The notes under the pieces: model-generated
The model's database searches: none
What the model saw: the letters and a program-made list of their open reading frames with translations, nothing else
What the model was told of the DNA's origin: nothing
In this document: one piece after another, positions 42,122 through 47,000 of the stretch
Position numbering within the stretch: the stretch's first letter is position 1
Layout: every line of letters starts with the position of its first letter
DNA from: Egicoccus sp. AB-alg2
GTDB taxonomy: Bacteria > Actinomycetota > Nitriliruptoria > Nitriliruptorales > Nitriliruptoraceae
Length of the DNA stretch: 64,000 bases
Reading direction: 5' to 3'
Assembly: GCF_041821065.1 (NCBI RefSeq)
Contig: NZ_JBGUAX010000008.1
Location: forward strand, 1 to 64,000
Position numbers and translations under genes: made by a program

Positions 42122-42496
42122 TCAGCGCAGCGAGTCCTCTAGGTCGCGCACGGCCTGGTTGGCGAGCTCGAGCTGGTCCTGGTCGGGACGGTCGCCCAGC
42201 GCCATCAGCGACGCGACCGCCCGGTCGGCGGTGTCCGGCTCGAGGGCGAAGCCGCCCCGGTCGATCCGGTCCATGCCCATCGCGGGGCGGGTGGCCGGCT
42301 CGCCACCGTCGATGCCCATCCGGTCCATGATCCGGTCGAGACGGCCGGCGAGCTCGCGCCAGCCGGAGTCGGCGTGCTCGTCGTCGGCGCCGTTGCGGGA
42401 GGCGAGCTCGCGCGACTCGCGCAGGACCTGCACGATCTGGAAGTCCTGCGTGAAGCGCATGGACTCCTCCGGCAGCGGCTTGCGGTCGTCGGCCAT
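42122..42496 (-). CDS. Hypothetical protein
   Basis: A 124-residue acidic, soluble protein that I do not recognise. It begins [31 protein letters not shown], contains the helical stretch [20 protein letters not shown] and ends with [11 protein letters not shown]-like and [14 protein letters not shown] helices. The ATG at 42496 follows a strong GGAGGAG site. It diverges from the ABC exporter gene across 142 bp. Confidence 0.72.
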
Positions 42497-42638
42497 GGCG
42501 GCTCCTCCTGTCCTCGTGCTCGCGACCGTGGCGGACGCTCCGACCACCCGCAAGCGCGTCCCGCCGACGGTCGGGCACCGCCGGAACGTCGCCTACCCTT
42601 GGCCGGCCCTGCTCCTGTCTCCCCACGGTGAACCGCCC

Positions 42639-44453
42639 GTGCCCGACGTCCTGCCCGCGCGCCCGCGGGGGCCCGCGCCGTTGCTGCGGCTGTGGCGCTA
42701 CGCGCGCCATCGCCGCCGACAGGCCGTGCTCGCCACGGTCGCGTCGGTGCTCAACACGCTCTTCGACATCGCGCCGCCGTACCTCATCGGCATGGCGGTG
42801 GACGTGGTGGTCGCCGGCGAGGGCTCGCTGATCGGGCGCTGGTTCGGTCTGACGGCCCAGCGCGACCAGCTCGTCGCCCTCGGCATCCTGACCGTCGTGG
42901 TGTGGGTCCTGGAGTCCGTCACCGACTACTGGGCCGACATCCTGTGGCGCAACCTCGCCCAGACGGTCGAGCACGAGCTGCGCGTGGACGCCTACGCGCA
43001 CGTCCAGTCGCTGGACCTCGCCGCGTTCGAGGACCGCAGCACCGGCGGGCTGCTGGCGATCCTCAACGACGACGTCAACCAGCTCGAGCGCTTCCTGGAC
43101 CACGGTGCGCTGCTGATCATCCACATCGCCACGTCGATGGTCGTGATCGGGGGCACCTACCTGGTGGTCGCGCCGGGGATCGGGCTGCTGGCCGTCCTGC
43201 CGGTCCCGCTGATCGTGTGGGGCTCGCTCCGTTTCCAGCGGCTGCTGGAACCGCGTTACGCCGACATCCGTGCCCGCGTCGGAATCCTCAACGGGTCGCT
43301 GGGCAACGCGCTGGGCGGCATCGCCACGATCAAGGCGTTCGGCGGGGAGCGGCGCGAGCTGGCCCGGATCACCCGCGAGTCGGACGACTACCGCTCGGCC
43401 AACCGGTCCGCGATCTGGCTGTCCAGCGCGTTCGTGCCGCTGATCCGGATGCCGATCCTGGCCGGCTTCACGGCGATCCTGATCGTGGGTGGGTTCCGGG
43501 TCCTGGACGGCAACCTCGACGTCGGCGTCTACACCGTCATGGTGTTCATGGTGCAGCGGCTGCTGTGGCCGCTGACCCGGTTGGGTGAGGTGCTGGACCA
43601 GTACCAGCGCGCCATGGCGTCCACCCGCCGGGTGCTCGACCTGCTCGCCGAGCCGCGCCACGTCGTCGGCGGCCGGCGTCCGCTCCCTCGGGCCCGCGGC
43701 GACGTCGACTTCGACGGCGTGCGGTTCGCCTACGCCAGCGGCGACGAGGTGCTGCGCGGCATCGACCTCCACGTCCCGGCCGGGCAGACGCATGCCATCG
43801 TCGGCGCGACCGGCGCCGGCAAGTCCACCGTCGTCAAGCTGCTCCTGCGGCTGTACGACGTCACCGCCGGCGCCGTCCGCCTCGACGGCATCGACGTGCG
43901 CGAGTTGCGGCTCGAGGACCTGCGCGGCGCGATCGGGCTCGTCAGCCAGGACGTGTTCCTGTTCCACGGCACCGTGCGCGAGAACCTGCTCTACGGCCGG
44001 CCGGACGCCACCGACGAGGAACTCGCCGAGGCGGCCCGGCTGGCCGAGGCCACCGAGTTCGTCGAGGCGCTGCCGGACGGGTACGACACCGTGGTCGGCG
44101 AGCGGGGCCAGAAGCTGTCCGGCGGTCAACGCCAGCGGTTGTCCATCGCGCGGGCGATCCTGCGGGACCCGCCGGTGCTGGTCCTCGACGAGGCCACTTC
44201 GGCCGTCGACAACGAGACCGAGGCGGCCATCCAGCGCTCGCTGGCCCGCGTGGCGCACGAGCGCACCACCATCGTGATCGCCCACCGGCTCTCCACGATC
44301 CGGCAGGCCGACCGCATCCACGTCCTGCACGACGGCGAGGTGGTGGAGGCGGGCAACCACGACGAACTGCTCGCCCTGGACGGGCGTTACGCCGCCCTGT
44401 GGCGGGTGCAGACCGGCGAGGCCGAGCCGACCCCCTCCACCCCCCACCCCTGA
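42639..44453 (+). CDS. ABC transporter, fused permease and ATPase (exporter type)
   Basis: A half-transporter of 604 residues. Six membrane helices fill about residues 20-330 and the nucleotide-binding domain follows: Walker [14 protein letters not shown]-loop [16 protein letters not shown], signature [16 protein letters not shown], Walker [10 protein letters not shown] and the H-loop IVIAHRLST. It resembles lipid or multidrug exporters of the MsbA/BmrA kind, but the cargo cannot be told from sequence. The start is GTG at 42639 with a weak ribosome binding site. Confidence 0.9.
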
Positions 44454-44478
44454 CCTGCCCCCGACCGGCGTCCGAGCC

Positions 44479-44526
44479 GATCTGCGGAGCAACCTGGGGT
44501 AGCAACACCCCGGTGTCGCTCCGCAC
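44479..44526 (+). repeat. Left 48-bp terminal inverted repeat of the DUF559 element
   Basis: It begins GATCTGCGGAGC and ends GTCGCTCCGCAC. It matches the complement of 45261-45308 at 39 of 48 positions without a gap, with identical ends of 12 and 8 bases. The arm is itself a near-palindrome (TGCGGAGC pairs with GCTCCGCA, and GGGGT with ACCCC), so it can form a hairpin. It starts 26 bp after the ABC transporter stop and might also act as its terminator. Confidence 0.85.
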
Positions 44527-44627
44527 GTCCGTCGCCAGCGTCGGTACATCTCACGAAGCAGCGGTTGTCCACAGGTGACGGGCGGCCGAGCGCACCGCTG
44601 GCGTGTCGACACACAACGCTGGCGGGC

Positions 44628-45216
44628 ATGTGGAAGAACTTCTTCGAGTACGCCGCCGACCACGACGGCCCGGTGCAGGCGCACGCCGCCGCAGCCGCGA
44701 CCGGTCTCACCGTCGGCCGCCTGCGCGCGCGGGCGCGCCGCGAAGGCTGGTGGACGCCGCCCGAAGTCCGCCATGTCTGTGACCATCGGCTGGCGGTGGT
44801 CTCGGCACCGAGGCTCGTGCGCGACCTCGCCGGCGGGATCACCCTCCATCGCCTGACGGCCCTGACGATCGACCTGGTGCAGCAGCGTCATCTGCGCCTC
44901 GAAGATCTCGCCCGCCTGCTCGCGCAGCAGAAGCGCTTCGAAGGTCGGCCGCTCGTCACCGCCGTCGTGGACCGGCTCGAGGCCAGCGGGCGCGTCGACT
45001 CCATTCCTGAGCTCCGGGCACGTGACCGTCTGGTCGAGGCGGGCATTCCGCTGGATCGTGGCCAGGTACGCGTGGTGTGTCTCGACGGGGTCCCGATCCA
45101 CTTCGACCTCGGCATCGCGGTGATCCGCTTCGGCATCGACATCCGACTTCCTCGCGCTGACGAGGGAGACGGTCCGGGAGCAGTCGCTGCGCTTCCTCGA
45201 TCGCCCCTGGCCTTGA
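44628..45216 (+). pseudogene. Decayed AbiEi-HTH/DUF559-type gene
   Basis: The remnant starts MWKNFFEYAADHDGPVQAHAAAAATGLTVGRLRARARREGWW, like actinobacterial proteins that join an AbiEi-type winged helix to a DUF559 nuclease domain. After GWWTPPE the central region of the family seems to be missing. VSAPRLVRDLAGGITLHRLTALTIDLVQQRHLRLEDLARLL and IPELRARDRLVEAGIPLDRGQ follow. The nuclease core breaks off after HFDLGIAVIRFGIDI. A family-like tail (DFLALTRETVREQ to FLDRPWP and TGA at 45214-45216) continues in another frame, so a second deletion removed the catalytic strand region. An open frame reaching 45392 exists but ends in non-family sequence. Confidence 0.7.
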
Positions 45217-45260
45217 TTCCCGTCGGCGCACGGTCGGCCCAGGAGCACACGTGCCGCCAA

Positions 45261-45308
45261 GTGCGGAGTGACACCCCTGGGTTCCCACCCCAGTTCGCTC
45301 CGCAGATC
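45261..45308 (-). repeat. Right 48-bp terminal inverted repeat of the DUF559 element
   Basis: It begins GTGCGGAGTGACACCCCTGG and ends GCTCCGCAGATC. It is the inverted partner of 44479-44526 (39 of 48 identical). Like the left arm it is a near-palindrome, with TGCGGAG pairing CTCCGCA and an inner CTGGG/CCCAG. It lies 16 bp past the stop of the minus-strand SDR gene. Confidence 0.85.
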
Positions 45309-45324
45309 CCGCGGCGAGGCGGGG

Positions 45325-46170
45325 TCAGGGGTGGCGGGTGCCGGCGCCGGCGAGGACGGCGGTGTAGCCCTCGCGGTAGGTCGGGTAGGTGAACCGGAAA
45401 CCGGTCGCGACGAGGCGGTCGTTGCGGCAGCACTTGTCGCCGCCGCGCGATCGGCGGTCCGCGCCGACGGGCGGCGCCGGGCACCCCAGCTGCTCGGCGA
45501 GCCACCGCAGCACCTCGCCGCGCTCGACGGGGGCATGGTCGACACCGAGGTACACGCGGGCCGGCGCCGGCACGCGCGTGAGCAGGTGGACGATGGCTTC
45601 GGCGGCGTCGTCGCGGTGGATGCGGTTGGTGTGCGCCGGTGCGGCGGGGATGGTCGCGGTCCCACTGCGGACCTGGTCGATCAGGCGCGTGCGTCCGGGC
45701 CCGTACACGCCCGCCAGCCGGAACGTCGTCGCCGGGAAGGGCCCGTCGAGCAGCGACCGTTCGGTCTCCACGAGCACCTGCCCGGTCGCCGACGTGGGCT
45801 CGGTGGGCGTGTCCTCGTCGACCCAGCTGCCGTCGTCGACGCCGTAGACGGCCGTGCTGGAGACGAACAGCACCCGGGCGGGCGCCGCCCCCGCCGCGCG
45901 CAGCCCCGCCAGCACGCGTGCAAGCCCGTCGCGGTAGACGCGCCGGTACGCCGCGACGGACCGTTCGCCCGGCGCGGCGGCGAAGACGACCGCGTCGGTG
46001 TCGGCCGGCAGCGGCGGCAGTTCTCCGCCGAGGTCGCCCGCGAGCCGCTCGAAGCCGTCCGGGAGCCGTGCCGGGGTACGGCGCAGCCCGACGACGGTGT
46101 GGCCGTCGCGCTGCAGGCGTAGCCCGGCCTCCGTGCCGAGATCGCCGCAGCCGGCGACGAGGACCTTCAT
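45325..46170 (-). CDS. NAD-dependent epimerase/dehydratase (SDR family)
   Basis: An extended SDR-type protein of 281 residues. It has the dinucleotide motif VLVAGCGDLGTEAGLRL, VLFVSSTAVYGVDDGSWVDE with the serine and tyrosine region, FRLAGVYGPGRTRLI and NRIHRDDAAEAIVHLL. It resembles the YeeZ group of atypical SDRs. The ATG at 46170 overlaps the stop of the upstream serine hydrolase gene by four bases, so the two are coupled. The substrate is unknown. Confidence 0.88.
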   Translation of the reverse strand: MKVLVAGCGDLGTEAGLRLQRDGHTVVGLRRTPARLPDGFERLAGDLGGELPPLPADTDAVVFAAAPGERSVAAYRRVYRDGLARVLAGLRAAGAAPARVLFVSSTAVYGVDDGSWVDEDTPTEPTSATGQVLVETERSLLDGPFPATTFRLAGVYGPGRTRLIDQVRSGTATIPAAPAHTNRIHRDDAAEAIVHLLTRVPAPARVYLGVDHAPVERGEVLRWLAEQLGCPAPPVGADRRSRGGDKCCRNDRLVATGFRFTYPTYREGYTAVLAGAGTRHP

Positions 46171-47000
46171 CGCCCGTAGACGTCGACGACGGCGTCCTGC
46201 AGTGCGGGCCAGGCGTCGCGGCACCAGTCACCGAACGGCCGGTCGGCCAGCGAGGCGATGCCCAGGCCGGCCTCGGGGTCGACGACGACGAACGACCCGC
46301 TCTGACCGAAGTGACCGTAGGACGCCGCCGAGAGCCGAGCACCCGTCCAGTGCGGGTCCTTGCCGTCCTTGATCTCGAAGCCCAGCCCCCAGTCGTTGGG
46401 ACGCTGGCGACCGTGGCCGGGCAGGACCCCGTCCAGGCCCGGGAACGCCACGGTCGTCGCCTCGCGCACCAACGCCTCGTCGAGCAGCGTCGGGGCGAGC
46501 AGTTCGCGACAGAAGGCCAGCAGGTCCGTCACGGTGCCGCGCGCGTCCTTGGCCGGCGAGCCGTCCAGGACCGTGTCGTGCATGGCCAGGGGCGTGAGCA
46601 CCTCGTGTTCGAGGTGCTCGGCGAACGACAGCCCGACGCGCTGTTCGACCAGTTCGCCCAGCACGTCGAACCCCACGTTCGAGTAGACGCGGCGGGCGCC
46701 GGGGGCGCCGGTCGGCCCGGTGTCGTCGAACGACAGCCCCGAGGCGTGCGCGAGCAGATGCCGGACGGTCGCGCCCTCGGGCCCGGCGGGCTCGTCGAGG
46801 TGCAGCGCCCCGTCCTGGACGGCGACCAGGACCGCATAGGCGGCCAGCGGCTTGGTGACGGACGCGAACGGCAGCACGGTGTCGACGTCGCCGCGCGCCT
46901 CCAGCGTCGTGTCGGCGTCGGTCACGCCCACGCCGACCGTGTCGACCGGCCAGTCGTCGACGGGAGCGAGGAGGTCGGCCACGACGGCTCCGGAGGGCAT
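46167..47000 (-). CDS. Serine hydrolase, beta-lactamase class C fold
   Basis: A cytoplasmic hydrolase of 277 residues with the SxxK motif in LPFASVTKPLAAYA, RHLLAHASGLSFDD, the YxN motif in RRVYSNVGFDVLG and a late HFGQSGSFVVVDPEAG block. No signal peptide is visible, unlike the related gene at 22210. It lies 24 bp after the HAD gene and overlaps the SDR gene, forming a three-gene unit. Confidence 0.9.
   Translation of the reverse strand: MPSGAVVADLLAPVDDWPVDTVGVGVTDADTTLEARGDVDTVLPFASVTKPLAAYAVLVAVQDGALHLDEPAGPEGATVRHLLAHASGLSFDDTGPTGAPGARRVYSNVGFDVLGELVEQRVGLSFAEHLEHEVLTPLAMHDTVLDGSPAKDARGTVTDLLAFCRELLAPTLLDEALVREATTVAFPGLDGVLPGHGRQRPNDWGLGFEIKDGKDPHWTGARLSAASYGHFGQSGSFVVVDPEAGLGIASLADRPFGDWCRDAWPALQDAVVDVYGR

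Follow-up and report, generated by a model that had tools for sequence, protein, structure and literature searches.

Short extragenic palindromes that flank a single gene and are also scattered singly or in arrays are described from the REP/RAYT (TnpA-REP) systems, as 'REPtrons' and 'TIRtrons' (PMC3116915, PMC3733652). The AbiEi antitoxin binds two 23-bp inverted repeats 3 bp apart, with autoregulation as the result (PMC7319586). MTES_1575 is defined as a Vsr REase (PMC3710099). A DUF559 protein of Caulobacter is required for the DNA-damage response when the cytosine methylase or methylation is lost (PMC12907096). Actinobacterial genomes commonly encode proteins named 'type IV TA AbiEi family antitoxin' or 'DUF559', to which no role has been assigned. 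No relevant report linking DUF559 with palindromes was found in a literature search that had most subscription papers outside its range.

The window is the whole stretch of 64,000 nucleotides analysed here. Between two convergent genes it carries a palindromic site, a gene remnant and a second palindromic site. The unit is best explained, with somewhat better than even confidence, as a decayed nuclease-repeat unit, for which a mechanism of REP-like repeats with a cognate AbiEi-Vsr nuclease is proposed. Its features are the following.

42159-44453, + strand: left neighbour, ABC exporter gene, start uncertain; located beside the SDR gene in congeners G002 and G003 too.
44479-44526, no strand: upstream palindromic site (arm 1), from the inverted-arm match and a flank score of 30 (locus L037).
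44628-45143, + strand: AbiEi-type HTH / Vsr-like nuclease remnant, N-terminal and middle part, from alignment with the G003 relative; internal loss of ~75 codons.
45145-45216, + strand: C-terminal tail of the remnant in another frame, TGA at 45214-45216, from a reading against the G003 protein.
45261-45308, no strand: downstream palindromic site (arm 2), inverted relative to arm 1, from the arm match and flank score.
45325-46224, - strand: right neighbour, SDR-type gene, convergent, from the open reading frame and congener comparison.

The arms are 48 nt each, ungapped, 81% complementary, with 734 nt between them. Each is itself a near-palindrome, TGCGGAGC...GCTCCGCA. The upstream-versus-downstream match scores 30; among 388 swapped-flank control pairs the 95% quantile is 16 and the highest score 22, and the initial annotation of two inverted near-palindromic arms enclosing a gene remnant is confirmed. 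The N-terminal frame of the remnant opens at ATG 44628. About 75 codons present in the G003 relative are absent after residue ~47. The G003 protein, the best match in the bacterial family, is 64% identical over residues 48-177; the N-terminus matches separately. A second loss and a frame change are located at ~45144, where the conserved E, H and D of the nuclease core are gone (by-eye reading against G003). The tail, DFLALTRETVREQSLRFLDRPWP-stop, occupies 45145-45216 in the different frame. Pfam and NCBIfam searches of the remnant itself give no match. It is classed as AbiEi/Vsr (DUF559/MTES_1575) because the intact relatives with which it aligns match those models. By alignment it belongs, in decayed form, to a family of ~300-aa fusions of an AbiEi-type DNA-binding module and a Vsr-like nuclease (DUF559/MTES_1575).

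An 11-bp match, CACCCCTGACC, at the ends of both neighbouring genes had been taken to extend the symmetry outward. It is placed outside the feature as a coding coincidence, because both neighbour proteins (ABC and SDR) happen to end His-Pro-stop. In congener G002 it is retained at the SDR end and lost at the ABC end.

The gap between the ABC and SDR genes is empty in G002: ~20 bp separate the two genes, and neither a gene nor a palindrome lies between them, which supplies the empty site sought in relatives. A target-site duplication is not definable there, the gap sequence being too diverged. In G003 the gap holds a frameshifted relative of the remnant gene, on the opposite strand compared with the window, and different palindromes (CGTGGAGT...ACTCCACG), two copies of which lie on one side. 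The gap has therefore been filled or emptied within one genus. The contig scan with the second alignment comprised 11 loci, 7 of them from named Nitriliruptoraceae.

In the window's genome (G000) the exact arm pattern has one extra match. A control pattern gives equally many, so the arm pattern alone proves nothing there; matches of a 14-mer with 2 mismatches are likewise no more frequent than those of its control. Candidate relics of the window palindrome occur at C17:27756 and C9:93330, each shortly 3' of a stop codon. Both are probable relics; support is moderate because the arm pattern alone sits at control level. The relic at C9:93330 (L083) is located between the stop codon and a tRNA-like gene (by-eye call). 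The same genome has, at C5:36154-37062, a second unit that looks intact; it has a palindrome of its own, of which three dispersed copies exist.

Relatives were gathered across Actinomycetota, with a match in 105 of 296 genomes. Flanks of 350 bp upstream and downstream were compared for 98 non-redundant genes with both flanks available, an ungapped score of at least 20 being counted as a match. The two sides match in 62 of the 98 genes, compared with 1.0% of swapped flank pairs, 0 of 27 TetR genes of the same genomes (Fisher 4e-10) and 2 of 245 random windows; 36 genes have no match at this threshold. In a stricter test, palindromes with identical 8-nt arms are present on both sides of 17 of the 98 genes (control mean 0.23, maximum 2). 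The shared sequence is typically an imperfect palindrome of ~40-50 bp, occurring once or as tandem copies. In a few cases, L140 among them, the match is not palindromic. Copies across the gene are direct in 41 cases and inverted in 21. The upstream copy precedes the gene by a median gap of 86 nt, and the downstream copy is as regular as the upstream one. At L159, L170 and other loci sampled across the phylum, both repeats start at a stop codon: the upstream one at that of the gene before the nuclease gene, the downstream one at that of the nuclease gene itself.

The proposed single-gene unit bounded by palindromes, dead in the window, is thereby found intact elsewhere. Palindromes do stand on both sides of intact DUF559 genes, but they are not the window's arms: each gene has its own palindrome, differing from gene to gene, and the idea of fixed ends common to DUF559 genes is abandoned. 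That the palindromes are no more than ordinary terminators, or arose by chance where convergent genes end, is extremely improbable. Many copies do follow stop codons, and those of the window do lie between convergent genes; the cross-gene matches, however, are far above controls, and 0 T-run intrinsic terminators were found in 44300-45500. The latter result also leaves the terminator-like palindromes that had been named as targets without support.

The largest family of sites is represented by 52 distinct copies of the form GGATCGCAAC-N5-GACC-N7-GGTC-N5-GTTGCGATCC, with few substitutions. It is always 45 bp long, and the spacing is held in 93 of 97 candidate pairs. Its arms are nearly invariant; the spacers are unpaired yet fixed in length. 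All 52 copies start with GGATC or a one-base variant, end with GATCC and are without the RAYT-type GTAG tag. Constant length and unpaired spacers suggest a dyad read by protein on double-stranded DNA, not a hairpin. A pure hairpin reading for all sites is weakened by the same two properties of this large family. Sites of the G290 family are near-perfect palindromes whose changes are paired, and a hairpin role is possible there.

The same palindromes are dispersed through their genomes. Nine palindromes compared by BLAST with ten genomes of the window's bacterial family have dispersed copies, with dozens in G013 and G024. For nearly all of 14 palindromes compared with 12 genomes, several of them from distant actinobacteria and some complete, further copies were obtained, and the matches listed were all in the genome of origin. 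Exact copies found with the gapped pattern of the GGATCGCAAC family number 32, 31 and 17 in three congeneric genomes and 0 in 32 other genomes of the bacterial family; a control pattern has 0 matches. Coding-like frames are avoided (7 of 41 copies, compared with 103 of 171 random positions). Copies are often located after stop codons; tandem arrays also occur. The initial annotation would have counted it against a mobile unit if the palindrome occurred mostly at convergent gene ends without a DUF559 gene. This is half the case: palindromes do occur away from the gene. They belong, as dispersed copies, to one and the same repeat family, and so speak for a system of repeat plus nuclease and not against it.

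The 17 exact copies belong to G028 (L292, L295, L298, L301, L304), whose cognate gene was not found; the assembly is 73% complete, so that gene loss and non-assembly are indistinguishable. In G010 (L345, L346) dispersed copies share flanks beyond the palindrome, and the repeated unit can exceed the dyad. G197 (L196, L197) is the sole genome among 20 with Y1 (RAYT/IS200-type) transposase matches.

Palindromes dispersed outside genes and grouped in arrays resemble REPs, and their spread might be due to a different element, either RAYT or some unknown transposase, with the nuclease gene simply placed between copies. This explanation is very improbable. Of 20 palindrome-bearing genomes, 19 have no RAYT transposase (Y1_Tnp, PF01797), which disfavours RAYT; the association is with the nuclease family and not with TetR genes; and the palindrome is private to each gene.

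Units and sites turn over rapidly. In the gap between citrate synthase and fadB (genes named by eye) the neighbours have 84-90% DNA identity across three congeners. The nuclease within the gap is 56% identical between G002 and G003 and 36% in G000, and the palindromes differ. Homology of the neighbours returns, in two congeners, within ~20 bp of the outer edge of the downstream palindrome. At the orthologous loci L159 and L170 the proteins are 82% identical and the palindromes differ, the two copies within a locus staying alike. Conserved neighbours, diverged nucleases and palindromes, and likeness within a locus together mean that whole units are swapped and that sites evolve in concert. Three species of one genus (L141, L137, L136) have differing nuclease units in this gap, which makes it a possible insertion hotspot.

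Over all pairs, protein and palindrome similarity have a rank correlation of 0.03, a near-zero value put down to the fast turnover of palindromes. Only among pairs with at least 45% identity is the permutation level exceeded (0 of 2000), and a few pairs drive that excess. Proteins 80% identical can carry different palindromes, and a protein-to-site code is unreadable because the palindromes diverge so fast.

The domain survey included 60 members (59 above the flank threshold, and unit L141). AbiEi models match 58 of the 60; at E up to 0.01, MTES_1575 (Vsr-type REase) matches 54 and DUF559 24. Of the catalytic residues, D245 never varies among intact members, and E256, H263 and D272 reach at least 90% conservation. 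Modelled residues 1-201 match the AbiEi antitoxin 6y8q with Z 13.1 and Rv2827c with Z 9.1. The predicted architecture is an AbiEi fold in the N-terminal two thirds and a Vsr-like nuclease in the C-terminal third. The model is weak near the catalytic residues (pLDDT <50 at 245-261), and the Vsr fold is not among the structural matches listed for this poorly modelled nuclease part. Known AbiEi sites are comparable in scale to the palindromes of ~40-50 bp, which supports recognition by the AbiEi part. It is likely that the AbiEi-Vsr protein recognises its own palindrome.

In an alternative explanation, the palindromes are operator sites only: the AbiEi part represses its own gene, and others through scattered copies, and the nuclease takes no part in the spread. 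AbiEi proteins do autoregulate via paired inverted repeats of similar scale, the dyad of one family is fixed at 45 bp, and the upstream copy is near the gene (median gap as above). An operator would not, however, readily account for an equally regular downstream copy, for copies in tandem arrays and often after stop codons, or for sites that turn over between orthologous loci. A purely regulatory role is rather unlikely, though the least unlikely of the alternatives.

A role in defence or self-marking is improbable; in such a role incoming DNA would be the target of the nuclease, and the palindromes of the chromosome would mark self, or sequester or guide the enzyme. PADLOC and NCBIfam defence-protein models do match members; these matches come from the AbiEi and Vsr domains rather than from any tested system. 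Among the neighbouring open reading frames of 8 loci, housekeeping genes were recognised by eye, and no toxin or consistent defence partner was noticed. Phage records gave no match (one query). In plasmids, each of two queries had a single near-full-length match, and the record was the same for both.

Under the preferred explanation, a nuclease-repeat unit, the AbiEi part would bind, as a pair, a dyad of ~40-50 bp private to its own gene. The Vsr part would nick or cut at or near the bound dyad, and repair would copy the site sequence from other copies. Such copying would keep the flanking copies alike and spread solo sites to gene ends. The whole unit would settle in convergent gene gaps, or replace another unit there. 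The upstream site probably also serves autorepression. Chances are about even that the nuclease drives the spread and homogenisation of the palindromes. With the same balance of confidence, AbiEi-Vsr fusions could be repeat-propagating enzymes of a non-HUH type, each binding and cutting its own co-evolving dyad, with specificity turning over fast. If true, this would explain the abundance of DUF559/AbiEi genes in actinobacteria. Such proteins now come with a predicted, testable DNA target. If the nuclease drives the repeats, a second, unrelated bacterial route to REP-like families would exist, as would fast-evolving, long-site DNA-binding nucleases with known cognate sites.

No pairing of AbiEi-Vsr enzymes with cognate dispersed palindromes was found in the literature searched. 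Like a REP/RAYT system, the AbiEi-Vsr gene is flanked by short palindromes, and the same ones are dispersed outside genes in the genome. RAYT, however, is an HUH/tyrosine transposase acting on single-stranded, GTAG-tagged hairpins; here an AbiEi part is joined to a Vsr-like nuclease, and the best-studied site is a dyad of fixed length with unpaired spacers. The system is analogous to REP/RAYT but not a member, because the defining HUH transposase is missing. The type IV TA AbiEi proteins (S. agalactiae AbiEi, M. tuberculosis Rv2827c) share the fold of residues 1-201, and known AbiEi binds paired inverted repeats of a total length similar to the sites here (PMC7319586). The present proteins differ by the added Vsr-like nuclease domain and by sites on both sides of the gene and dispersed; no toxin partner was noticed beside them. 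Intact members share the conserved D, E, H, D core of the Vsr/DUF559/MTES_1575 family, of which the window copy has lost E, H and D. Known Vsr members repair T:G mismatches, and none was found described with cognate palindromes. The homing endonuclease I-Bth0305I, of EDxHD type, has been linked to the Vsr fold. It likewise combines a nuclease with DNA-binding modules, and dimerises on a target of nearly 60 bp (PMC3943268). Unlike I-Bth0305I, the present units have no intron or intein, and the site is present in many copies and lies uninterrupted on either side of the gene. Compared with a classical insertion sequence, cross-gene copies are more often direct than inverted.
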